A stretch of 21,872 nt of DNA from a virus. The stretch is from IMG/VR virus record IMGVR_UViG_3300042463_000659, positions 1-21,872 of that record, one strand, 5' to 3'. A program made the position numbers and the translations under genes. The notes under the pieces were generated by a model. That model saw only the letters and a list, made by a program, of their open reading frames with translations. It made no database searches and was not told the origin of the DNA. This document shows, piece by piece, positions 6,067 through 21,400 of this stretch (positions are counted from its first letter, which is position 1; every line of letters begins with the position of its first letter).

Positions 6067-7188
6067 ATGAGTAATGAAAAAGAAGCAGGATTTGAGGAAT
6101 TAGAGTTTGACTTAACTAAAGTCGGAGAATCAACTCAAACAGAAACCACAAAAGATATTGTGGTAGATGATGTGGAACCAACACCACAACCTGAAAAGAA
6201 AAAAGTTGGAAAGGAAAAAAAGGTTGAACCTGTAGATGACATTTTAGAACCAGAACCTGAGCCTAAAAAAACATCTAAAAAACAACCTGATCCAGAACCA
6301 GAACCTGAAGAAGAATTAAACTTAGAAGGTGAAGGATCTGAATCAACGCTCTTTGAAACATTAGCAGAAAAATTAGGTTATCAATTCGATGAAGATGAAA
6401 CTTATGAAGAAACAGAGGATGGACTTGCACAGTTTATTACCAATGCTTCGGATAAAGTTGCTGACGCAAAATTGAATGGATACTTTGAATCTCTTCCTCC
6501 AATTGCAGGAGAATTTTTTGATTATCTTCAAATGCTAGGTGACGATGCAACAGAAGAAAACATTAAACAATTCTTTACTACAGCTAATCCAGAAGTTGAC
6601 TTTTCAACTATTGATTTGAAAGATGAATCAGTACAAAAATCTGTAATGAGAACATTATACAGAGAAATGGATTACACGGATGAAGAAATTAAAGAGTCTT
6701 TAGAAGATTTAGAAATCTCTGGTACTTTAGCAAAACAAGCACAAATTGCAGCAGGTAAACTTACTAAAATGCAAGATCGTCAACGTGCTGTATTGTTAGA
6801 ACAACAAAGAGCAGCTGATATTCAAAGAAGACAACAATTGCAAAGATTTTGGGGTGAAGTTGATACTACTATTAAAAAAGGTAGAGTACAAAACTTTAAC
6901 ATTCCAACTACTGAGCAAAGAGCAATAATGGACTATATGTCTAGACCAACTAAAAACAATGCTTCACAAATGCAAGAAGATTTAAAAAATCTTAGTGTAG
7001 AAGACAGAGTTGCTTTAGCTATATTCTTAAAAAATAAAGGTAACTTAAATAAATACATATCAACTGCTGCTGCAAGTCAGAAAGCTTCAACTTTAAGGGA
7101 TAAACTTAAAGGAGTAACACCAAAGATGAAAAGTGGTGGAGGCTATTCAAGTTCAGCAGAAGATGATATTGATTTCTCAATTAAATAA
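6067..7188 (+). CDS. Probable capsid scaffold / head assembly protein (acidic)
   Basis: 373-residue, very acidic protein between portal and major capsid protein, the usual place of a scaffold. Residues about 30-95 are low-complexity with Pro-Glu repeats separated by Lys-rich patches (EPEPEPKK, PEPEPEEE), probably disordered. The middle is helical (TLFETLAEKLG, LPPIAGEFFDYLQML). A Gln/Arg-rich coiled coil follows (about 225-260, LLEQQRAADIQRRQQLQRF), and the end is Ser/Gly-rich. Acidic, helical, disordered-tailed proteins are typical of scaffolds and of assembly cores that leave or are cleaved from the head. I chose ATG 6067; a TTG two codons earlier is possible but less likely. No protease motif is visible in it. 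The function is inferred from location and composition. Confidence 0.6.
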   Translation: MSNEKEAGFEELEFDLTKVGESTQTETTKDIVVDDVEPTPQPEKKKVGKEKKVEPVDDILEPEPEPKKTSKKQPDPEPEPEEELNLEGEGSESTLFETLAEKLGYQFDEDETYEETEDGLAQFITNASDKVADAKLNGYFESLPPIAGEFFDYLQMLGDDATEENIKQFFTTANPEVDFSTIDLKDESVQKSVMRTLYREMDYTDEEIKESLEDLEISGTLAKQAQIAAGKLTKMQDRQRAVLLEQQRAADIQRRQQLQRFWGEVDTTIKKGRVQNFNIPTTEQRAIMDYMSRPTKNNASQMQEDLKNLSVEDRVALAIFLKNKGNLNKYISTAAASQKASTLRDKLKGVTPKMKSGGGYSSSAEDDIDFSIK

Positions 7189-7218
7189 ACAATTCTCTAA
7201 AAAAACAACAAATAAACT

Positions 7219-8667
7219 ATGGCACAATTTTTAATGGATCAAGTGTGGAATGAAAGCATGAAAAGTAATGATGCTTCTTTCTCTCGTCTGATTAATGCAC
7301 AGCCTGACAAAATCGCACCAGTTCTTACTCGTATGATGGGTAATGAATCTTCTCGTTTTCCTTTAATGTACCTTTCAGAAGGTATGAACGCTATTCAAGA
7401 AATTGATGGTGACGAATACGAGTATGATGTAATTGGACGTTTGTTCAAGGCAGTATCTCTTCAATCACCTCCTTCAGGTTCTTATGCAGCTAACTTCGGT
7501 ATTGGTTACTCAGAAGCTACTTTGTATTTTGCTGAAGGTATTTTCCCTGTAGGTTACACTATCTTGTCACCTCAAGGTTACCAATTACGTATTACTAACC
7601 GTATTCAAACTAACGGTCAATGGGCTTACAGTGTAAGATTAGTTGCTAAAAATGCATCTGAATTTTTACCTGCAAGTGAAGTTGCTGCTGGTTCATTGTA
7701 TGCATTGGGTTGGAACTCGGTAGCTTCATTTGGATCTTTTGGTAGCTTGTCTACTTCAACTGCTCCAGTTAAAGTTCGTGGTGACGTAGGTACTATTCGT
7801 AAAGGTTATGCTTACGAAGGTAACATCAAATATCGTAAAGCTAAAACTGTACAGTTAGACACCAAAGGTGGAGGTAACCGTGAAATGTATTGGCCTTACG
7901 AAGAATACCAACACAATTTAAGTTTCCGTGTAGAATGTGAAACTAACTACTGGTATTCTAAATCAAATCGTGATGCTTATGGTGTTATCAACGAACGTGA
8001 TGAACAAGGTAATCCAATTGTACGTGGATCTGGTTTGTTCGAACAAATCACTAACAAAGATACCTATGGTGCATTAACAGCTGATAAAATTGATCAAACC
8101 ATTCGTGACGTATTTTATGGTATGTCAGATGCTGAAAATAAAGTTATCACTTTGTTCACAGGTATTGGTGGTCGTTTAATGTTTGACCAAGCTATGAAAA
8201 ATGAACTTAGTTCTAAACAGTACATCAAATTATCAGATAACAAATTCGTTACTGGTGATGGATACAATTTGGGATTAGGTGGATACTTTGATACTTATCA
8301 ACACGTTGATGGTTACAAGGTGATTATCAAAACTGCTTCTATTTTTGATAACGGTCCTCAAGCTTTGGCTTCTCCTAAACACCCTAACTACCCTAACCTT
8401 CCATTGGAATCTTTCCGTATGGCATTTGTAGATACATCTACTTATGATGGTATGAGTAACTTGTCTATGGTTTCTAAGAAAGGCCGTGCAATGTTACGTG
8501 GTATGGTAAAAGGTATTAACGAAGCACCATCAGGAACTGACTTTACTGCTAACGATATCATTGCAACTGATAAAGATGGTAGTTCAGTACACTTCTTGAA
8601 AGCTGGACAAGTTGTTCTTAGAAGATTTAACACTTCTATCGACTTAGCTTGTACTGCTGGTTTGTAG
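7219..8667 (+). CDS. Major capsid protein, crAss-like (HK97 fold expected)
   Basis: 482-residue protein that I recognise as the capsid protein by its sequence pattern (MAQFLMDQVWNESM at the start, GNESSRFPLMYLSEG near residues 41-55), its length and its position after the portal and scaffold. It would form the icosahedral shell. Codon use differs visibly from its neighbours: more C-ending and CGT codons (CGT for Arg rather than AGA), as expected for a highly expressed gene. It has its own A-rich leader, no ribosome-binding purine run, a tandem in-frame stop TAG TAA (8665-8670) and a strong terminator just downstream. An inserted domain after about residue 100 (YSEATLYFAEGIFPVGYT onward) is possible. 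The HK97 fold is known for the family, not read from this sequence. Confidence 0.88.
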   Translation: MAQFLMDQVWNESMKSNDASFSRLINAQPDKIAPVLTRMMGNESSRFPLMYLSEGMNAIQEIDGDEYEYDVIGRLFKAVSLQSPPSGSYAANFGIGYSEATLYFAEGIFPVGYTILSPQGYQLRITNRIQTNGQWAYSVRLVAKNASEFLPASEVAAGSLYALGWNSVASFGSFGSLSTSTAPVKVRGDVGTIRKGYAYEGNIKYRKAKTVQLDTKGGGNREMYWPYEEYQHNLSFRVECETNYWYSKSNRDAYGVINERDEQGNPIVRGSGLFEQITNKDTYGALTADKIDQTIRDVFYGMSDAENKVITLFTGIGGRLMFDQAMKNELSSKQYIKLSDNKFVTGDGYNLGLGGYFDTYQHVDGYKVIIKTASIFDNGPQALASPKHPNYPNLPLESFRMAFVDTSTYDGMSNLSMVSKKGRAMLRGMVKGINEAPSGTDFTANDIIATDKDGSSVHFLKAGQVVLRRFNTSIDLACTAGL

Positions 8668-8678
8668 TAATATTACGA

Positions 8679-8714
8679 TTAAGGGTAGTTGAAATACACT
8701 ACCCTTAATTTTTT
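8679..8714 (+). terminator. Intrinsic terminator after the major capsid gene
   Basis: Perfect 11-bp stem, TTAAGGGTAGT (8679-8689) pairing with ACTACCCTTAA (8698-8708), 8-base loop and a T run to 8714. It begins 12 bases after the capsid stop codon. It would end or attenuate the capsid transcript and protect its 3' end. The next gene starts 32 bases later. Confidence 0.85.
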
Positions 8715-9654: not shown

Positions 9655-10764
9655 ATGAATATAACACAAATGCATACAGAGATTCAAGCTGAGATGAATA
9701 AAATGAATTCATTTTTGTTTGATACCTTTTCTCGTCAAGAAGTTGACATTGCTATTAATAGGAGTATTCTAAGATTTTTAAACCAAAAATATTCATCTAA
9801 ATCTAATCTTATGAAGAGAGGATTTGAGATGAGTCAAAAACGTATTGACGACTTACGTGCACTTGTCGTATCTAATTATATTGGAAAAGCAACTATTCCT
9901 CCAAGTACAGATCCAGATGTAAATGAAAAAGTTAATTTTGAATTACCTGGAAATTATTACCATGCTGTAGCTGCTAGATTTAGAGTAGCTCATAATCAAT
10001 GTGGTAGTATTGTACCTACAGCAACTACACAGTTGTATAACTACGCTGTATTAAATATGAGTGATTTTCCTTCTAATACTGATATAGGAACAATTAAAAT
10101 AACTGAAACAGAGGATACTAATATTACAGTAGAGTTTCCTGCTGCAGGTGTAAATTATTCTTTTCCTGAAGATACTAGTTTAATAGCTAGTATTTTAATG
10201 CAAAAGTTAACTAAAGCATTTGCTAATTATCCGTTAATAGAATTTTTCTGGGAATCGTATAAAGATCTTTATTTCCAAAATTCTATTATAATTTTAATTA
10301 AAGAAACAAATCCTTCTTATGTTTTTGAGTACGAGTATAAGTTATTAGATGAAACTGAAGAAGGGCCTACAGAATTAACTAATGAAGAATATAATATTTC
10401 TTTTTATAGTAATGGAACAACTTTAACTACTTCTGGTAAATTAACACAAGAAGATGATATCTATGCAATGCAGGCTGATCCGTTTAATAAAACATCGGCT
10501 GAGTTTCCATTGTATTTTTTCTCAGAAAATCATTTTAATATTTACTATCAAAAAACAGGAAATTTTAATTTTGTTGTAACTGATGTAATTTTATCTTATA
10601 TTCGTAAACCAAATGTTGTGTCTTATTATCTAGAACAAGATTGTGATTTACCAGACGCTACTCATCAAGAAATTGTTAGCATGTCAGCTAATTATTTACT
10701 TGAGGTAACACAAGCTGGTGATAGATTTAAAACTCAAACAGAAATGGTACTAACTAATGAATAA
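9655..10764 (+). CDS. Probable head-tail connector / ring-like protein, 369 aa
   Basis: The N-terminal helical pattern (ITQMHTEIQAEMNKMN, then SRQEVDIAINRSILRFLNQKY, residues about 3-46) is like the adaptor/ring proteins that stack under portals in podoviruses and crAss-like phages: a helical bundle followed by a beta-rich region (residues about 95-320) and a final helix (HQEIVSMSANYLLEVTQA) before the C-terminus. FELPGNYYHAVAARFRV (about 97-113) resembles the first strand segments of such adaptors. The long beta-rich middle (NITVEFPAAG, FYSNGTTLTT) is larger than in P22-gp4-type adaptors and may be an inserted domain. It lies apart from the other ring genes, which are at 16.5-18.4 kb. Role assignment is moderate; a neck or decoration protein is the alternative. 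Confidence 0.5.
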   Translation: MNITQMHTEIQAEMNKMNSFLFDTFSRQEVDIAINRSILRFLNQKYSSKSNLMKRGFEMSQKRIDDLRALVVSNYIGKATIPPSTDPDVNEKVNFELPGNYYHAVAARFRVAHNQCGSIVPTATTQLYNYAVLNMSDFPSNTDIGTIKITETEDTNITVEFPAAGVNYSFPEDTSLIASILMQKLTKAFANYPLIEFFWESYKDLYFQNSIIILIKETNPSYVFEYEYKLLDETEEGPTELTNEEYNISFYSNGTTLTTSGKLTQEDDIYAMQADPFNKTSAEFPLYFFSENHFNIYYQKTGNFNFVVTDVILSYIRKPNVVSYYLEQDCDLPDATHQEIVSMSANYLLEVTQAGDRFKTQTEMVLTNE

Positions 10765-12174: not shown

Positions 12175-12203
12175 AGGGAAGTATAAAAATACTTCCCTTT
12201 TTT
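12175..12203 (+). terminator. Strong intrinsic terminator
   Basis: Perfect 10-bp stem AGGGAAGTAT (12175-12184) with ATACTTCCCT (12189-12198), AAAA loop, and six Ts at 12198-12203. It lies 26 bases after the 448-residue structural gene and should separate it from the following group of genes. Confidence 0.88.
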
Positions 12204-13641: not shown

Positions 13642-14487
13642 ATGCCAAAATTAGGATTAGGGTTAGGTATTGATAATACAATTAGTTTATCTGCAGCATT
13701 TACTACAGAATATCAGGCTATTTTAGCAAGAGGAACAGCTCTTGGATATACTTTACCAAGTGCTGATACACAAATTAAACAAAATCAATTAGTTTTTAAT
13801 TTAAAAGCAGCAGGAACTTGGGATAAATTAGATGTATTATATATCTATGGTAATGGAGCTGCAAGTAGTAATTTTGCTTTAATAAATTGGAAAAACCCTA
13901 ATGTTTCTTTATCTACAATTACAGGTAGTTTAACTTTTGGTAATCTTGGATTTACAGGTGCTGCAAGTAGTTATATAGATACAAATTATAATCCTGTTAC
14001 AAACGGAGTAAAATATAAAACAGATAGTGCTTCTGCTGGTATTTGGAAGTTTTTAAACAATAATACTGCAACAAAGTTTATGTACGGAAACTCAGGATCG
14101 TTTAATAATACTCCAGGTGATAGTGGAGCATCAGCAGCTGTAAGAATTATGACATTTAATACTTTTGTTGGTGCAGTGCAAACAGGTGTAAATAATCAAG
14201 CTACTGGATTATTGATTGCTAATAAATTAAATAACACTGGATCACCTACAGTTAGAGGTACTAATAATTTTGCTTTTTATTCTGGAGGAGCATATCAAAT
14301 TAGAGATACTGAAAACGAAGCTTTAACATCAGGTAATTATAGTGTTTTTGCTTATGCTCCAATAGCAGGAGCATTGCCTAGTACATATTTAGGAGGTATT
14401 GGAAGTTTTTTTGCAGGTGAAAGTTTTACTAGTGACCAATCACTTGGATTTGATGCTGCAATGACTATTTATTTTAATTCGTTATAA
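13642..14487 (+). CDS. Fibre- or adhesin-like beta-sandwich protein, 281 aa
   Basis: Beta-rich and Gly/Asn/Ser/Thr-rich. After a short N-terminus (MPKLGLGLGIDN) comes a helical segment (TEYQAILARGTALGY) and then the block WDKLDVLYIYGNGAAS...FALINWKNP (about residues 60-92). The rest (about 98-281) runs in short strands, with GFTGAASSYIDTNYNP and GIGSFFAGESFTSDQS, like concanavalin/laminin-G-like sandwich proteins found in Bacteroidota phage fibres and adhesins. A role in host or glycan binding, or as a head fibre, is therefore plausible. This is from composition and pattern memory, not from a conserved site. Its TAA stop shares one base with the next, very small gene (TAATG). Confidence 0.6.
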   Translation: MPKLGLGLGIDNTISLSAAFTTEYQAILARGTALGYTLPSADTQIKQNQLVFNLKAAGTWDKLDVLYIYGNGAASSNFALINWKNPNVSLSTITGSLTFGNLGFTGAASSYIDTNYNPVTNGVKYKTDSASAGIWKFLNNNTATKFMYGNSGSFNNTPGDSGASAAVRIMTFNTFVGAVQTGVNNQATGLLIANKLNNTGSPTVRGTNNFAFYSGGAYQIRDTENEALTSGNYSVFAYAPIAGALPSTYLGGIGSFFAGESFTSDQSLGFDAAMTIYFNSL

Positions 14488-14618
14488 TGATGGTAAAAGT
14501 AACAGGTAAAAACTCGGCAATAAAAAAGACATCTTTTGGAAGAAAAAAAGAAGGTGTCCAGAAGAAAAAAAGAAATAAACATGAATCGGTAAAAGAATAC
14601 CGTGGTCAAGGCAAATAA
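14487..14618 (+). CDS. Very small basic protein, 43 aa
   Basis: ATG at 14487 overlaps the previous stop in a TAATG junction, and the frame runs 43 codons to TAA at 14616-14618. The product is extremely basic, with Lys/Arg in about two fifths of positions, several KKK or RKK runs and the ending KEYRGQGK. A second ATG follows the first at once. Its position, coupling to the gene before it and lack of any other frame in the interval support it as real. Short Lys-rich proteins ending in YRGQG-like sequences appear in Bacteroidota phages as far as I recall, with no known function. DNA or RNA binding is possible. Confidence 0.6.
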   Translation: MMVKVTGKNSAIKKTSFGRKKEGVQKKKRNKHESVKEYRGQGK

Positions 14619-14636
14619 TAAAACGTAAATATAACT

Positions 14637-14828
14637 ATGACACATGAATTAAAATCTGAATTTGGAGTTGCTTTGGTTAGCTGGGTTTTCTTGCTAATCA
14701 GTAAAATGGCTCATTTTTTACCTGAACTTCAGGTATTTGCCGTTTTCTTGGCAATTGTAAGTTCTCTTATTAGTATCATCTTAGGACTACCCAAAGTAAT
14801 TACCCTAATTAAAAGATTCTTAAAATGA
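14637..14828 (+). CDS. Holin-like membrane protein, 63 aa
   Basis: 63 residues with two hydrophobic segments (about 9-27, VALVSWVFLLISKMAHFL, and 33-53, VFAVFLAIVSSLISIILGL) and a basic C-terminus (KVITLIKRFLK). This is the size and topology of a small class II or III holin. It overlaps the next gene by an ATGA (14825-14828). Together with the adjacent membrane protein and the peptidase that follows, it forms a lysis module. It could be the holin or the antiholin of the pair; the sequence does not decide. No signal peptide is expected. Confidence 0.65.
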   Translation: MTHELKSEFGVALVSWVFLLISKMAHFLPELQVFAVFLAIVSSLISIILGLPKVITLIKRFLK

Positions 14829-15049
14829 AAAAGTACAGCTATGGCTTAAATCAGTTCTTTAAACCCACACCTAAAAATATTGCTAGGTTTGGGTTAGCTT
14901 TATTTACAACCTGTTCAGCAGCTGCTGGTACATTTGTATATTTTGAACAAGAAAAAGTAGCCATGGTTATAGGTATTATCGGAGTAATTGGTATGTTTCT
15001 ATCTAATTTTTTTGGCAACGGAAATACAGGTAAACAAGAGAATATATGA
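14825..15049 (+). CDS. Second holin-like membrane protein, 74 aa
   Basis: Soluble basic N-terminus (KKYSYGLNQFFKPTPKNIARF) followed by two membrane segments (about 22-40, GLALFTTCSAAAGTFVYF, and 45-66, VAMVIGIIGVIGMFLSNFF) and a polar tail. The PTPKNIARFG motif before the first helix is reminiscent of small membrane proteins that precede endolysins in Bacteroidota phages. It is joined by ATGA overlaps to the genes on both sides (14825 and 15046), so three lysis genes are translated as one chain. Two holin-like proteins in tandem suggest a holin/antiholin or pore/regulator pair. Confidence 0.6.
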   Translation: MKKYSYGLNQFFKPTPKNIARFGLALFTTCSAAAGTFVYFEQEKVAMVIGIIGVIGMFLSNFFGNGNTGKQENI

Positions 15050-15450
15050 AAATAAGTAAACATATTAGCTATGAAGAAGCTACATTATCTCCTACTGCTA
15101 TAAGAAATGGTATAAGTAATCAACCAAATGAAGAGCAGTTGCATAATATGCAGCAATTAGCTGAGAATATATTTGAACCATTGAGGAAAATGTATGGAAA
15201 ACCAATCAAGGTGAATTCATTTTTCAGGTCAGAAGAATTGAATCAACTTGTTAAAGGCCAAAAAGGAAGTCAACATACAAAAGGTCAAGCTATTGATATT
15301 ACTGGTAAAAATAAAGAAGAGAATAAAAAGTTGTTTGAATTGGCAAAGACTTTGGATTATGATCAATTGATTAATGAGTACGATTTTTCATGGATACATA
15401 TCTCATATAAATCTGCAGGAAATAGAAAACAAGTTTTAGTGATAAAATGA
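15046..15450 (+). CDS. Peptidoglycan peptidase, M15 family (endolysin)
   Basis: 134-residue zinc D-Ala-D-Ala carboxypeptidase-like endolysin (M15, peptidase M15_3 type). The zinc triad reads as H77 (SQHTKGQAIDI), D84 in the same motif and H118 (SWIHIS), with E111 as likely catalytic base in LINEYDFSW. The early VNSFFRSEELN (residues 56-66) is the usual substrate-side block. No signal peptide is visible, so export would depend on the holins encoded just upstream. It starts in an ATGA overlap with the second holin-like gene. It cuts cross-links or stem peptides of the wall. It could be structural instead of lytic, but its size and the neighbouring holin-like genes argue for a lysin. Confidence 0.88.
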   Translation: MKISKHISYEEATLSPTAIRNGISNQPNEEQLHNMQQLAENIFEPLRKMYGKPIKVNSFFRSEELNQLVKGQKGSQHTKGQAIDITGKNKEENKKLFELAKTLDYDQLINEYDFSWIHISYKSAGNRKQVLVIK

Positions 15451-15469
15451 TTAAATAAAAATAAATAGC

Positions 15470-15613
15470 ATGAAAGAGTTAATCGTAATTTTCAGTATTT
15501 TTGTAGCATTATTAATTGCCTACTTAGAGTATGATAGTCATGAACAAATTAAGAAAATTAACGAAAAACGTAAAGCTGTTTCTAAAAAGAAAACTAAACA
15601 ATCTAATCAGTAA
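15470..15613 (+). CDS. Small one-helix membrane protein, 47 aa
   Basis: ATG at 15470 after a 19-base A-rich gap, 47 codons, TAA at 15611-15613. One hydrophobic segment spans residues about 4-19 (LIVIFSIFVALLIAYL), followed by a charged tail rich in Lys (KKINEKRKAVSKKKTK). The basic tail probably stays in the cytoplasm. It belongs to the lysis block, between the peptidase and another membrane protein. It could be a lysis regulator or a short inner-membrane partner; it is too short and has the wrong tail charge for a typical i-spanin. Function unknown. Confidence 0.6.
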   Translation: MKELIVIFSIFVALLIAYLEYDSHEQIKKINEKRKAVSKKKTKQSNQ

Positions 15614-15618
15614 TACCG

Positions 15619-15912
15619 ATGATATATGTAATTGTCTTTGTTGTTCTAAAAGCCGTGATGGATTCGATTTCTCATCATGATAGTTTTAAAAAACTAGGTT
15701 GTCATAAGTTCTTTTGGAGAGAAACTGCAGAAGGACCTAAACGTACGTTTCTGCAAAAGTACTTTCCAATGTTTTATGACATGTGGCATTTATCTACTAC
15801 ATTGCAGGTATTAATGGTAGCTTGGTTAGCTTCAGGTACTATAGTAGGAACGTTATTATTATACACTATAGGCAATATAGTATTCATTGCTGTTTATGAA
15901 GGACTAAGATGA
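15619..15912 (+). CDS. Membrane protein in lysis cassette, 97 aa
   Basis: 97 residues. There is a hydrophobic N-terminal segment (1-13, MIYVIVFVVLKAV) and a long hydrophobic C-terminal half with one or two helices (about 62-92, VLMVAWLASGTIVGTLLLYTIGNIVFIAV). Between them is a soluble stretch with conserved-looking Trp/His/Phe (HDSFKKLGCHKFFWRE, FPMFYDMWHLS). I recall similar small proteins in Bacteroidota phages but no function. It starts 5 bases after the preceding gene and ends in an ATGA overlap (15909-15912) with the spanin candidate, so the two are likely coupled and may work together at the membrane. Confidence 0.6.
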   Translation: MIYVIVFVVLKAVMDSISHHDSFKKLGCHKFFWRETAEGPKRTFLQKYFPMFYDMWHLSTTLQVLMVAWLASGTIVGTLLLYTIGNIVFIAVYEGLR

Positions 15913-16355
15913 GATATTTAATTTTTATATTATTTTTAATAACCTCTTGCACAGCAGAGTGGCATTTAAAACAAGCAATAAAGAAAAACCCTAAATACGG
16001 TGACAGCACATATAAAACAGTTATTTTTAAAAAAGATACTCTTATTAAGATATACGATACTATACCTGGTGATAGTAGTTTTCAATTTACCTTATTTTAT
16101 CGTGATTCCTTCAACAAGGTATTTAGTGATAGCTTTACGACTGTATATCAGTCAATTGATAGCCTTAATAAAGTCAAAACTACGGTTGTTAGGAGGCCCA
16201 TTTATGTACGTGATTCTATTCTGGTTAACATTGTAGATACTGTAAAGATAGACGTTCCTAAAACTATTGAGATAAAACAAGGATACCCTGTATGGTATTT
16301 TTGGGTATTAATTGCTATCTTTGTATTGGTATTATGGCTGACATTAAAGAAGTAA
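15909..16355 (+). CDS. Candidate unimolecular spanin (u-spanin)
   Basis: 148-residue protein with both elements of a u-spanin. There is an N-terminal lipoprotein signal (RYLIFILFLITSC, lipobox with Cys14 after ITS) and a C-terminal membrane helix (about 127-146, VWYFWVLIAIFVLVLWLTL) ending in KK. The lipid anchor would hold the outer membrane and the helix the inner membrane. The region between (15-126) is beta-rich, with repeated short strands (TVIFKKDTLIKIYDT, SSFQFTLFYRDSF). Spanins fuse the two membranes in the last step of Gram-negative lysis. Position in the lysis block supports this. An ordinary lipoprotein with an additional helix would be the alternative. Confidence 0.68.
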   Translation: MRYLIFILFLITSCTAEWHLKQAIKKNPKYGDSTYKTVIFKKDTLIKIYDTIPGDSSFQFTLFYRDSFNKVFSDSFTTVYQSIDSLNKVKTTVVRRPIYVRDSILVNIVDTVKIDVPKTIEIKQGYPVWYFWVLIAIFVLVLWLTLKK

Positions 16356-16549
16356 ACAACTTTCTTTGGGTTACAACTCCTCATGGTCACGGACAAGTTC
16401 TATTTTTAATAGATTACGGCCCACATGAAAATTTGATATTTGTTGTAGCTTTAGAGGAAGATGGATCTATAAAACATTACAATAGTAATAATGTAAAGTT
16501 ATGCCATAATCATACATTTTTTAAAACAGATAGAAATGACAAAAAATGA
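16334..16549 (+). CDS. Small conserved-looking soluble protein, 71 aa
   Basis: Start chosen at ATG 16334 (MADIKEVNNF), giving a 22-base overlap with the spanin gene. An ATG at 16292 is open in the same frame, but its extra 14 residues would be read from inside the spanin membrane helix and look artificial. The product, beta-rich with WVTTPHGHGQVLFLIDYGPH and DGSIKHYNSNNVKLCHN, resembles a family of short phage proteins built on a TPxGxGxVLFLIDYG core, of unknown role. It overlaps the ring-like gene that follows by 14 bases, linking the lysis cassette to the tail genes. Confidence 0.6.
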   Translation: MADIKEVNNFLWVTTPHGHGQVLFLIDYGPHENLIFVVALEEDGSIKHYNSNNVKLCHNHTFFKTDRNDKK

Positions 16550-17216
16550 GATAGTCTATAATTTACTGAACTTAATGTCGGCTGGACGTATTAATGACGA
16601 CTTTGCACCTTCAGTATCACAGTTATCGTTTATTATAGACTATAAACGTGCTCAATATATACGTCAAGATCAAAATAAAAACTATTTTGACAACGATCTA
16701 TTTTATCAAGATTTAGGTTGTATTCCATTAATTAAAGTAGATAAAGCTGAATGTTGTGAATTTAATGTGGATTGTGACATTCTTAGAACTGAATTTACTA
16801 TTCCTAAAACTATTAGATTCAAAGAAAGATATGCTTTAAAAGTATCTGCTATAGATAGACAATCTAGATTCAGTTTAATTCTTCCTGAAAGAAGTCCATT
16901 TTATTCAGAAAGAAAATATCCTGGAATGACATTACCGTTTTATTTTTTAAACGATTATCTTTATTTTCCGACTACCTTGGATCTTAAAGTAATTAATGTT
17001 AGGGCAATTTTAGAAGAACCAGAAGATGCAAGGACTTTTACTTGTGATGACGGTTTATGTTACACTGACAATTCAGATTACCCGTTGACAGCAGATTTGC
17101 TAGATTTGATTACAAAAGATATATTAGGAACAGAATTGAAATTCTTATTAGGAACAACTGAAGATAAAGAAAATGACGCAGTGTCACACAACAACAACAT
17201 TAACCAACAGTCATAA
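16536..17216 (+). CDS. Tail-barrel ring / neck protein, 226 aa
   Basis: 226 residues in a layout like crAss ring and adaptor proteins. There is a helical N-terminus (MTKNEIVYNLLNLM, SQLSFIIDYKRAQYIRQD), a middle beta domain with paired cysteines (KAECCEFNVDCDILRTEF, about residues 69-86) and the sequence FTIPKTIRFKERYAL, then a Pro/Cys region (EEPEDARTFTCDDGLC, about 162-177). A C-terminal helix with LLDLITKDILGTELKFLLG (about 191-209) and KENDAV follows. This combination (CCE...CD...IPKxIR, then a final helix ending near ENDAV) is familiar to me from neck proteins of crAss-like and related phages. The exact ring number is not assigned. The C-terminus overlaps the next gene by 44 bases. Confidence 0.6.
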   Translation: MTKNEIVYNLLNLMSAGRINDDFAPSVSQLSFIIDYKRAQYIRQDQNKNYFDNDLFYQDLGCIPLIKVDKAECCEFNVDCDILRTEFTIPKTIRFKERYALKVSAIDRQSRFSLILPERSPFYSERKYPGMTLPFYFLNDYLYFPTTLDLKVINVRAILEEPEDARTFTCDDGLCYTDNSDYPLTADLLDLITKDILGTELKFLLGTTEDKENDAVSHNNNINQQS

Positions 17217-17679
17217 TTGGTATAATGCTAATTATGAAAAACAGATTCCTTTTAAACTGTATAAAAAGATAATCCTTGAATTAAACAACTACGTTGTGGA
17301 TTATCTTCTTTTAGGAGGAAACCGTAAATTTAAAGTGCCTTTTCATCTAGGTGAAATTCAGGTACTTAGGTTTGACAGATCTTTTAAGGTTAAAAATGAC
17401 CGTTTAATAGCACCTGTAAATTGGGGTCAAACTAAGAAGTTAAGAAAAGAAGGTAAATTAGACGATAACAAGTTTATATACTATACCGATAAATATTACG
17501 TAGGGTTTCATTGGAATAAGAAAAATTGTAATATAAAAGGTAGCACTATGTATAAGTTTGATTCTTCTAGGACAAATGGTACTAAATGTAAATCTGGAGC
17601 TAAGAATAAACTTACTGAACGACTTAAATCGGATTCTGAATATTATCTAAGATTTGATAAAATTCCAGTATCTTTGTAA
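17173..17679 (+). CDS. IHF/HU-like protein in the tail gene block
   Basis: 168 residues. The core (residues about 25-75) follows an IHF/HU layout: a helix (YKKIILELNNYVVDYLLLGG) then PFHLGEIQVLRFD, which matches the strand-turn-strand start of a DNA-bending arm. Crassvirales are known to encode IHF-like subunits near their ring-protein genes, and this one lies between two ring genes. The remainder is basic (TKKLRKEGKLDDNK, RTNGTKCKSGAKNK). The start overlaps the previous gene by 44 bases, with no internal ATG upstream of the core. If the assignment is wrong, it is simply an unknown conserved structural-region protein. DNA bending during packaging or ejection, or regulation of late genes, are possible jobs. 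Confidence 0.55.
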   Translation: MTQCHTTTTLTNSHNWYNANYEKQIPFKLYKKIILELNNYVVDYLLLGGNRKFKVPFHLGEIQVLRFDRSFKVKNDRLIAPVNWGQTKKLRKEGKLDDNKFIYYTDKYYVGFHWNKKNCNIKGSTMYKFDSSRTNGTKCKSGAKNKLTERLKSDSEYYLRFDKIPVSL

Positions 17680-17694
17680 TACAAAGCTAAAAAC

Positions 17695-18420
17695 ATGAAT
17701 TATAGATCAGTTTCTTGTAAAAGAATAATAAACAGAGCTTTTGGAGCATACGGTACTTTGCTATCTCAGCATTCTGATAGACTTATTGGAGAAGCTGTTG
17801 ATTGGATTGGAGATGCACTTGAAGCTATTGGTTGTACAGAACAGTTATTAGATAAAACTGCATTTCTAACTATTAAAAATGGTAAAGCCGTAATACCATG
17901 TGATTTATATTTAATTAAATCGGTAGCATATAAAAGCACTTTTTTAAGATATGGATCTCAAACTTTTAACTACGACATGCATTGTGACGATTGTATTAAT
18001 ACATCTATTTTGCATACAGATTATAGCTACACTGTTAATCCTAACTATATCAATACCAATGTGCCTGATGATGAGATTATATGTGTATCTTATCAAGCTT
18101 TTCCTGTTGATGAAGAAGGGTTTCCTTTAATTCCAGACAAAGAAGCAGTAACTCAATGTTTATTTTGGAAGTTAACTTACATGTTAATGTTAGGAGGTTT
18201 TGAACATCCTAATAGAGAAATGACTTTAAGTTATGCTGAAAACCATTACATGAGATACAGAGGACAAGCTGAAAACTTATTGGCTATGTTTGACATTCCA
18301 AGAATGGAATCATTTAAGAATCAATGGGTTAGACTTATTCCTAATATTTCTACAGCAAGAGATTTCTTCTATTCAGATTCAATTGGTGAACACTTTATTA
18401 ATTTAAGATATAATAGATAA
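17695..18420 (+). CDS. crAss-like ring protein 1 (tail barrel)
   Basis: 241-residue structural protein that I recognise by pattern: a helical start (IINRAFGAYGTL, AVDWIGDALEAIGC), a beta section with DYSYTVNPNYINTN (about residues 115-128), FPVDEEGFPLIPD (about 138-150), then a C-terminal helix with YRGQAENLLAMFDIPRMESFKNQWVRLIP split over residues about 185-213. The ending KNQW-RLIP followed by an F/Y-rich stretch is typical of the ring protein that connects portal and muzzle in crAss-like phages. A Cys pair lies in YDMHCDDC. The gene overlaps the next by one base (TAATG), and that gene is the muzzle, which is the expected order. Confidence 0.75.
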   Translation: MNYRSVSCKRIINRAFGAYGTLLSQHSDRLIGEAVDWIGDALEAIGCTEQLLDKTAFLTIKNGKAVIPCDLYLIKSVAYKSTFLRYGSQTFNYDMHCDDCINTSILHTDYSYTVNPNYINTNVPDDEIICVSYQAFPVDEEGFPLIPDKEAVTQCLFWKLTYMLMLGGFEHPNREMTLSYAENHYMRYRGQAENLLAMFDIPRMESFKNQWVRLIPNISTARDFFYSDSIGEHFINLRYNR

Positions 18421-21400
18421 TGCAGCCTTTTTTATTAAATACAGATGGTGATCCACAAAATCAACCTGATAAAACATCAAGGTTGAATATTAATGTAAAC
18501 ATTAATTCAGAAGTTGGAAGTATTACTAATGAAGACGGTAATTATCCACTTTTTAATTATCCTACGTTAATAACTCCAGGTGCTACATGCATTGGTAAAA
18601 TTCCACTTAGCAATGGTTCTGTGGTATTATTTTCTGTAATTGAAGGGGAATCTAAATTTTATGACCCTAATGATCCAACTACACAACTTGTAGGTAGATT
18701 TTGTAGAGGAGAAATTGGAGTAATATCATCAGACAATTCTTACAGAGTATTAATTAGAGACAAAGTAGGAGTTACTGATTTTAATTGGAATCTTAATACA
18801 CAAATACAAGGTAGTTATAAAATTAACTCGGATAATACATTTTCCGTTTATTGGGTAGATTTTAGAAACCCATTAAGATATATAAATGTTGATATTCCAG
18901 AACCTGTTGTAGATCTTAACTTTCAATGTACAGACATTGATGAGTTTAATAAATTATACGTTTTAAAACCTTTTGAACAATTTAAGATTAATTTAGATTC
19001 AGTTCAAAATGGAGGTAACTTAAAATCAGGAGTTTACTACGTATTAGCATCTTATGCAGATGAGAATTTTAATGAAACTAACCTTTCATTTCCATCTAAC
19101 CCTATTTCTATAGTTAATGAGTTAACTCCATTTCCTCTTGAAAACTATGATGGATGCCCACCAAATACCTTAACAGGTAAAAGTTTTACTATTAGTTTTA
19201 GTTCAGACATTAATTTTCCTAATGTAAAATTATACGTTATAACTAAAATTAATCAAGTTTTAGCTGCTTATGATTTAGGGTATTTTCCTAATACAACTGG
19301 AACTTTTACTAGAGAAATTATATCTTTAGATAATGCAGCTACAACAAGTACAGATATTTTAATTAATAAAATTACTTGGGTAGCTAAAACTATTACTCAA
19401 TTAGACAATAGATTATATATTGGTAATTTAAAAGAACAATTAAAAACTAATCTTCAACCTTGGATTAACAATATTCAAGTAGAACCTTATATTGAAATTC
19501 AAGATAGAAGTGTTTTTAATACTTCATTTCACTCAGAAACTGCAATCTTTACTAAACGTTGTTTTCAATATGATGAGGTATATGCTCTTTATGCTACATT
19601 AGTTTATAAAGATGGTACGGAAAGTGAAGCATTTCATATTCCAGGCCGTCAAGCTGAAAGAGTTAGTTATGATGGAACTGCTTCTGCACCTGATATTACA
19701 GGTGGAGTAATAGCACGTGATTCAGCTGGAATAAGACTTAGGTTTGATGAAGATGAAAGACTTGATACAATTCAAGCTACTTACAGATTAAATGAAGATG
19801 AAGGATTTTCTAGTAGTTTAACTGATATTTCTAATGAAGGGGGCACCTTTAATACTACTACGTTGCAATTAATTTATAACGTAAATGCAGCTAATGGTAG
19901 TGGTTTAGCTACTAATGATATTGCTTTATTAAAACAATATGATCTAGCAGGTACAGAATCGTATTATTACGTAAAAGTGTTAAGTACTGATATAACAGGT
20001 ACAGCCCCACTTTTTACATACACTCATACTGTAGAAGCAGTTAAATATGTAAATGGTGCTAATTTAGGAGTTATAACTTTATGGAATATTTCATCAGGTT
20101 ATAATTTACCTGGTATTTTTTACGTACCTCCTATTATAGATGATTACGTAACTAACGGATTAACTTCTACTGATATTTCACCTGCTGGAGAAATATATAG
20201 TATTAATTCTGACTCTAAAGTATTTCATGCTTTTGATTGTGGAGAAGGTAATCTTTTATCACTTCCTTTAAAATTAGGGTTTTGGGAAAATGCTGATGAA
20301 ACTTATGACAACACTACTGATTGGGATGTAAAAAATTCAAGTGGTAGTAATACAGCTTCTTTTAAAAATCAAAAAATTAGACATCATAAAATGCCTGGTC
20401 CTGAAAACATTCAGCAATCAGCTCAAATTTATCAAACAGCTAATTTAGGATTAAAGATTTCTAATATAATTTTACCTGCAGAACTTGAAAATGAAATAGA
20501 TAAAATTAAAATATATTACGCTAAAAGAACTAATTTAAATAGGAGTGTTTTAGGACAATCATTAATAATACATGATTTTTATTTAACTTATGATGGACAA
20601 GATAGACTTGAAGAAGGTGTATTTAGTTTATCGTTTAATAATTCAATGGAGTTTTATTCTGATTACTCTCCTTCAGTTAGTAGATTTATGTATAGACGGT
20701 TAAATAGATTTAGAATGAGTCCTTTTGATATTTCTTCTTCTAATTTAGATGTATCTTCAGCTACACATTTTAAAGCATTTAAAAATGTATCTACACAATT
20801 AGATTATTGGGGATCTGTAGGAACTTCAGCTTGGAATAATAATATAGGTAATGATCCTAGAGCAGCAGATGCTAGATTTTATTGTTTTGAAGAATCAGTA
20901 GCTGATCAGAAAAAATCTTCTTACATTAGAAGATTTACTAATGCTAAATTAACTGAAAGCTTACCTATATATAATCCAGATTCTACTTGGACTACAGGTA
21001 GTGGACATCATCCCCCTAATGCAGGTTTATTAGATTTTACTTATGATACAACTCATTATCTTGGAGAAACTTGTGTAAGTATAGAAACGGCAAATAACAT
21101 AGAAGCAAATTGTTATACTGGTAATCAACAATTAAATTTTACACTTCCTTCAGAAGATCCTTATGATTCTTCTATTTTAAAAGGTAATATTTGTTCATTA
21201 AAACCAAATATGTATCCTAGTTATTATACTCAAGAATTAGTAGATACTGGATACATTGAAACATTAGACGCATCTGCTTTTAGTACAGGATTTGATCCAT
21301 CAAGTCATTTTTATGGTGGAGATACATTTCAATCATTAGATTCTTACAGATCTGCTAGTGATTTAGTATATGCTTATAATCAAGGATATTTTACACCTAG

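Follow-up and report, generated by a model that had tools for sequence, protein, structure and literature searches.

What does a seemingly complete set of lysis genes do amid the structural genes of a virus, and does its placement there tell us anything about the timing of lysis? The question is raised by a cassette at positions 14487-16549 of the IMG/VR virus record IMGVR_UViG_3300042463_000659, analysed here over 21,872 nucleotides (positions 1 to 21,872; hereafter the window). We read this cassette as the late lysis module of a crAss-like phage, situated in a slot between fibre and ring genes that is common to the lineage, and put the probability of this reading at roughly 85%. The contig belongs to the Crassvirales: in profile searches the capsid (major capsid protein, PF23898, E=2e-58), ring 1, ring 2 and muzzle families all exceeded their Pfam cut-offs, and the terminase and portal had PHROG matches. 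A tblastn search of named phages with ring 2 returned distant gut relatives only. All genes under discussion lie on the plus strand, with Crassvirales capsid, ring and muzzle genes surrounding the cassette. The result is an annotated lysis module, including a candidate unimolecular spanin (u-spanin), for an abundant phage order whose lysis has been little studied.

Flanked by the fibre genes and ring 2, the cassette forms a tight same-strand series in which genes are separated by 5-19 nt or overlap (Table 1). A preliminary description of this DNA, made from its letters, had listed two holin-like proteins, an M15 peptidase, two small membrane proteins and a spanin candidate; every one of these elements is present where it was placed, and all three of its ATGA overlaps (14825, 15046 and 15909) are confirmed to the nucleotide. 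Also confirmed is the overlap it described between a 71-residue protein and the first ring gene, which amounts to 14 nt at the start of ring 2 (16536). Against L003, a close relative (comparison loci carry the prefix L), most cassette open reading frames (ORFs) are under purifying selection, with ratios of nonsynonymous to synonymous substitution rates (dN/dS) of 0.02-0.32, and are therefore genes rather than chance frames.

The position of the cassette is conserved in most of the crAss-like relatives checked, including the cultured phage phi14:2. In phi14:2 and cr114_1, and in most loci whose sequence extends far enough upstream, a peptidoglycan enzyme is encoded after the fibre region and before ring 2. 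The suggestion that the embedding is special is not supported by this comparison, since most of the relatives checked have lysis genes in this slot and late co-expression of structural and lysis genes has been published for crAss001. Placement between the fibre genes and ring 2 was described correctly; the border drawn there between head/fibre and ring/muzzle genes is less clean, as a stretch upstream of the cassette (9655-10764) has a weak match to ring 3/4 (PF25710, E=4.5e-4, below cut-off). The cassette therefore probably splits the ring gene set instead of dividing head from tail.

At the heart of the cassette, the 134-aa protein is an M15 endolysin with intact active-site residues, predicted to cleave peptidoglycan. 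Its Peptidase_M15_3 score is 65.5 bits against a curated cut-off of 23.2, and it matches the muramoyl-pentapeptide carboxypeptidase 1lbu (E=4e-6). Alignment of 8 M15 homologues showed H77, D84, E111 and H118 to be invariant, which we take, from what is known of the M15 family, to be the His/Asp/His metal site and the catalytic Glu.

The enzyme itself is not fixed at this position. L003 is 93% identical to the window over 15444-20081 and 92.6% identical over 14614-15043, yet only 47% identical in the slot between, as against 93-94% in its flanks. Here, between preserved flanks, an unrelated DUF5675 gene (L003:8531-8938; PF18925, E=8e-33) stands in for the M15 gene. This substitution argues that DUF5675 does the endolysin's job in L003, and a swap between 93%-identical genomes makes the argument a clean one for what is formally a family of unknown function. 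Further loci carry DUF5675 as well, again in a lysis region that precedes ring 2 (L009, L033, L006, L008, L013, L021, L025, L026, L028 and L030), and gp30 of crAss001, annotated as an L,D-carboxypeptidase/transpeptidase, belongs to the same family. Elsewhere the slot holds Amidase_2 (L004, L036) or GH19 (phi14:2), and none of the loci examined has two of M15, DUF5675, Amidase_2 and GH19 upstream of ring 2. The endolysin position is thus an exchangeable slot, swapped between phages like a replaceable cartridge. As to the chemistry of DUF5675, its invariant residues are His84 and Gly94-Cys95, and a structural model (predicted local distance difference test, pLDDT, 86) had Salmonella Tlde1a, an L,D-transpeptidase, as its only plausible Protein Data Bank (PDB) match in Foldseek (probability 0.95, TM-score 0.53, but E=0.069, at the top of a noisy list). 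One member of the family has a sub-threshold match to the Tlde1 Pfam family (E=0.003), and a sequence search of the PDB with DUF5675 gave no match. Tlde1-like chemistry may be entertained for this family as a suggestion from modelling.

Exchange appears to have affected more than the enzyme. The window and L033 are 82% identical over 14823-15057 and 15444-16356, a block comprising holin candidate 2 and the 47-, 97- and 148-aa genes, as against 68-79% in other aligned stretches. Synonymous divergence (dS) from L033 is 0.46-0.61 for the 97- and 148-aa genes and 1.3 for ring 2. Judged from these values, it is probable that lineages have exchanged the cassette as a whole.

The two proteins preceding the endolysin, of 63 and 74 aa, have the layout of small holins, each with two transmembrane (TM) segments, and ATGA overlaps join the first gene to the second and the second to the endolysin gene. 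Homologues of holin candidate 1 are found at the same place in L003 (95%), L034 and L033, and those of holin candidate 2 in L003, L009 and L033. By topology and position both are likely holin-like, and we go no further in naming them. Downstream of the enzyme, the 47-aa gene differs from its L003 counterpart by a single synonymous change and has a homologue in L033; an overlapping ORF (15531-15680) considered in its stead has codon evidence that is no better and lacks a TM segment. The 97-aa protein resembles a family encoded just 3′ of endolysins in L005, L043 and L045 (hhalign probability 92.7%, E=4e-7).

The last membrane protein of the series, of 148 aa, combines an N-terminal lipobox and a C-terminal transmembrane domain (TMD; hydropathy 2.61) around a periplasmic part of about 110 residues. 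Cys14 and the TMD are kept in 6/6 homologues, down to 38% identity. Applying a simple topology filter to 95 endolysin loci, we found 15 ORFs with both lipobox and TMD, all of them within 2.5 kb of the enzyme, and none among 246 ORFs farther away (Fisher p=0.016, an optimistic value, as the loci are not fully independent); 8 of the 15 are mutually dissimilar (<60% position-wise identity). Topology and proximity to the endolysin fit a u-spanin, for which we regard the protein as a candidate. It resembles the T1 gp11-type u-spanins, and those of Ingeline and Nekkels, in that a single protein encoded beside the endolysin bears both a lipobox at its N-terminus and a TMD at its C-terminus. It differs from them in having no sequence match to a known family and in the extra periplasmic cysteine of half of its homologues. 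A survey from 2018 listed the Bacteroidetes phages B124-14, P2559S and P2559Y as spanin-less (PMC6139136), and u-spanins were later annotated in the Cellulophaga phages Ingeline and Nekkels (PMC8776804).

Several observations weigh against our reading of the cassette. The slot is not universal: in crAss001 the lysis genes follow the fibre/tailspike genes but precede the capsid gene, in L011 and L012 the stretch from capsid to ring 2 is free of lysis genes, and no enzyme was recognised in the slot of L024. Neither small 2-TM protein has a significant match to a Pfam or PHROG holin family. For this reason the earlier wording of a complete lysis system should be softened to a likely one, with the holins assigned by topology and position. 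The fold model of the 148-aa protein is of low confidence (mean pLDDT 51.6) and too weak for a structure search; it places strands at 69-73, 77-83 and 89-95 and a helix at 128-147 (pLDDT ~80), and the periplasmic domain of T1 gp11 is predicted to be mainly beta. Lastly, 3/6 homologues (L009, L034 and L036) carry an extra periplasmic cysteine, which is absent from the window, L003 and L033 and from 58/58 described u-spanins (PMC6139136).

Two other interpretations of these genes deserve consideration. Lying among structural genes and beside ring 2, the M15 protein might be a virion-associated peptidoglycan hydrolase used for entry, its membrane-protein neighbours being unrelated accessory genes. 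We consider this highly improbable, given that two 2-TM genes precede the M15 gene, the second overlapping it by ATGA, that four unrelated peptidoglycan enzymes alternate in the slot while lipobox-TMD and 2-TM genes often remain adjacent, and that the M15 family is annotated as endolysin in related phages. The other interpretation concerns the spanin, which could be a two-component, Rz/Rz1-like system with the 47-aa protein as i-spanin and the 148-aa lipoprotein as o-spanin. Such a system would accord with the weak Rz-like PHROG score of the 47-aa protein (E=0.029) and with L004 and L005, in which two overlapping TM-bearing genes stand in place of the 148-aa gene. However, the roughly 28 residues that follow the TM segment of the 47-aa protein are too few to span the periplasm, and the 148-aa protein has a C-terminal TMD of its own, which an o-spanin lacks; on these grounds of length and topology we rejected the two-component system as unlikely and retain the 148-aa protein as a u-spanin candidate.

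The overlapping pair just mentioned (L005:9332-10004 and L004:574-1213) is worth recording separately. Its two genes occupy the u-spanin position in different frames with an overlap of ~110 nt, one product having an N-terminal TM segment and the other a signal-like N-terminus and a C-terminal TMD, possibly a distinct spanin arrangement.

How the cassette is expressed was the second part of our question. The preliminary description held that lysis and tail proteins are probably made from one transcript, and named an isolating promoter and terminator as what would speak otherwise. No sequence signal of that kind was found. A plus-strand scan for hairpins followed by a U-run identified no strong internal terminator in 12.2-21.9 kb and none flanking the cassette, sigma-70-like matches were no more numerous than chance would give (59 against 74.5 expected from shuffled sequence), and no match to the Bacteroidetes -33/-7 promoter pattern lies near the cassette. 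Both clear-scoring hairpins lie farther upstream than the genes leading up to the cassette, one after the capsid gene and the other before the 12.2-kb gene; the latter, at 12175-12198, is identical in L003. Situated inside the late block, the two hairpins could set the relative expression of capsid and later genes. Because no comparably strong hairpin flanks the cassette, the fibre, lysis, ring and muzzle genes are likely to lie on a shared late transcript. This agrees with RNA-seq of crAss001, whose late module holds structural, holin and endolysin genes (PMC8375218), and with a review that treats structural and lysis genes as one transcriptional unit (PMC10136315). With such co-expression already published, the finding is ordinary in kind. 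Phage lambda is the textbook example of a holin setting the time of lysis when the late transcript is shared, and the earlier statement that timing "must" be post-transcriptional or holin-based goes too far, as nothing here discriminates. A cassette expressed apart from the ring and muzzle genes, through its own promoter or an mRNA-level switch, can be imagined in an AT-rich genome with possible RNA start sites and many weak sigma-70-like matches. We think it improbable in view of the matches being no more frequent than after shuffling, the absence of the -33/-7 pattern nearby, gaps of 5-19 nt or overlaps within the cassette, and the lack of a strong terminator after it.

Taken as a late lysis module, the cassette would work as follows. 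Transcribed late together with the fibre, ring and muzzle genes, as is probable, it would supply small 2-TM proteins that build up in the inner membrane, where one or both would open the membrane as holin, the other perhaps acting as antiholin. Lacking a signal peptide, the M15 peptidase would cross the opened inner membrane and cut peptidoglycan peptides. The 148-aa lipoprotein, anchored by Cys14 in the outer membrane and by its C-terminal TMD in the inner, would then remove the outer membrane as a u-spanin.

The start of the cassette had been set at 14487, with a 43-aa basic ORF. This is supported by synteny, with homologues preceding holin-like, PAS or endolysin genes elsewhere, but the protein is not a membrane protein. 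The homologues, of 40-45 aa and ending in YRGQGR, are encoded just 5′ of TM-PAS-endolysin genes (e.g. L054, L071, L072, L076 and L080). L003 lacks the gene, and an 809-aa fibre-like gene precedes the holin candidate there. A tiny basic family ending in YRGQG[RK] is thus seen directly upstream of lysis genes in unrelated phages. At the other end, the 71-aa gene overlaps the 148-aa gene by 22 nt; homologues are confined to the window, L002 and L003 and absent in L033 and L034, and the block conserved in L033 stops at 16356, before most of the gene. It is probably not a lysis gene.

Table 1 Features of the window in and around the lysis cassette (positions refer to the window; dN/dS values are relative to L003)
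Feature	Position	Strand	Characteristics
Terminator-like hairpin after major capsid gene	8677..8710	+	13 bp stem, -16.7 kcal/mol
Terminator-like hairpin with U-run, upstream of fibre/lysis/ring segment	12175..12198	+	10 bp stem, -18.4 kcal/mol (50-nt fold), T6
43-aa basic protein, ends YRGQGK, no TM	14487..14618	+	cassette start by synteny
Holin candidate 1, 63 aa, basic C-terminus	14637..14828	+	TM 9-25, 33-49; dN/dS 0.21
Holin candidate 2, 74 aa	14825..15049	+	TM 22-38, 45-61; dN/dS 0.05
Endolysin, 134 aa, Peptidase_M15_3, no signal peptide	15046..15450	+	PF08291 E=5.7e-18; PHROG 894 endolysin E=6e-31
47-aa protein, TM 3-19, basic C-terminus	15470..15613	+	PHROG 35006 E=2.6e-4; Rz-like PHROG 4349 E=0.029
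97-aa polytopic membrane protein, lysis-linked family	15619..15912	+	2-3 hydrophobic segments; dN/dS 0.12
Candidate u-spanin, 148 aa	15909..16355	+	lipobox LITSC, Cys14; C-terminal TMD 128-144; dN/dS 0.32
71-aa soluble protein overlapping ring 2	16334..16549	+	dN/dS 0.02; inside nominal 85-aa ORF from 16292
Ring protein 2 (downstream cassette boundary)	16536..17216	+	PF25702 CrAss_Ring_2 E=9.4e-30
Ring protein 1	17695..18420	+	PF24228 CrAss_Ring_1 E=7.2e-42
Muzzle protein, runs off contig end	18420..21872	+	PF25731 crAss_MUZ E=4.4e-21

Outside the window, which has no such gene, a second kind of protein occurs beside endolysins. The crAss-like relative L005 encodes at 7119-7865, beside an M15 gene, a protein composed of a PAS domain, a coil and two C-terminal TM segments (PAS/2-TM). 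A scan of viral contigs yielded 180 relatives, of which the best 80 were examined (loci L042-L121), and 71 of these have an M15 or GH19 endolysin gene no more than 1.2 kb from the PAS/2-TM gene. Of the remaining nine, six run out within 0.8 kb on the downstream side of the gene. A phage-lysozyme gene is found near it in L066; L068 has almost the same neighbourhood as L066 in truncated form, and in L097 no enzyme was recognised. Some relatives carry two PAS domains. Among 84,980 bacterial and archaeal genomes scanned, no full-length relative was found; matches were partial and fell mostly in the PAS part. The fusion therefore appears virus-specific. In phi14:2, g078 (L040:12356-12985) has the opposite domain order, TM-coil-PAS, directly upstream of the GH19 endolysin. 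The small 2-TM proteins of the window have no detectable homology to the TM part of the PAS protein, and a literature search found no paper describing PAS holins. We put the PAS/2-TM protein forward as a hypothetical sensory holin; if these endolysin neighbours are holins, one could test whether lysis is timed by sensing a signal directly.

More broadly, and as a tentative proposal that we hold for possible rather than probable, the cassette may be one state of a lysis kit of Bacteroidetes phages that is exchangeable slot by slot. The wall slot would take M15, Amidase_2, GH19 or DUF5675, the last as a Tlde1-like cysteine L,D-peptidase representing a novel type of endolysin, and the holin position would take small 2-TM proteins or a PAS-sensor/2-TM protein tying lysis time to a sensed signal.

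Among known systems, Cellulophaga phage phi14:2 (Crassvirales, Steigviridae) has the same order of fibre/structural genes, lysis genes with endolysin, ring 2, IHF-like, ring 1 and muzzle genes. It differs in having a GH19 endolysin and no M15, the TM-coil-PAS protein upstream, and a metallophosphatase between the lysis genes and ring 2. In Bacteroides phage crAss001 the lysis genes (gp27-gp30) likewise come after the fibre/tailspike genes, and RNA-seq places them in the late module (PMC8375218), whereas they lie before the major capsid gene and their enzyme, gp30, is of the DUF5675 / L,D-transpeptidase-like kind. In the Aurodevirus cr114_1, as in the window, an M15 endolysin precedes ring 2, together with LysB-like proteins and a protein annotated as holin, but its genes are more widely spaced, with others interposed, and a stop codon is recoded in it (ring 2 is read with TAG=Q).

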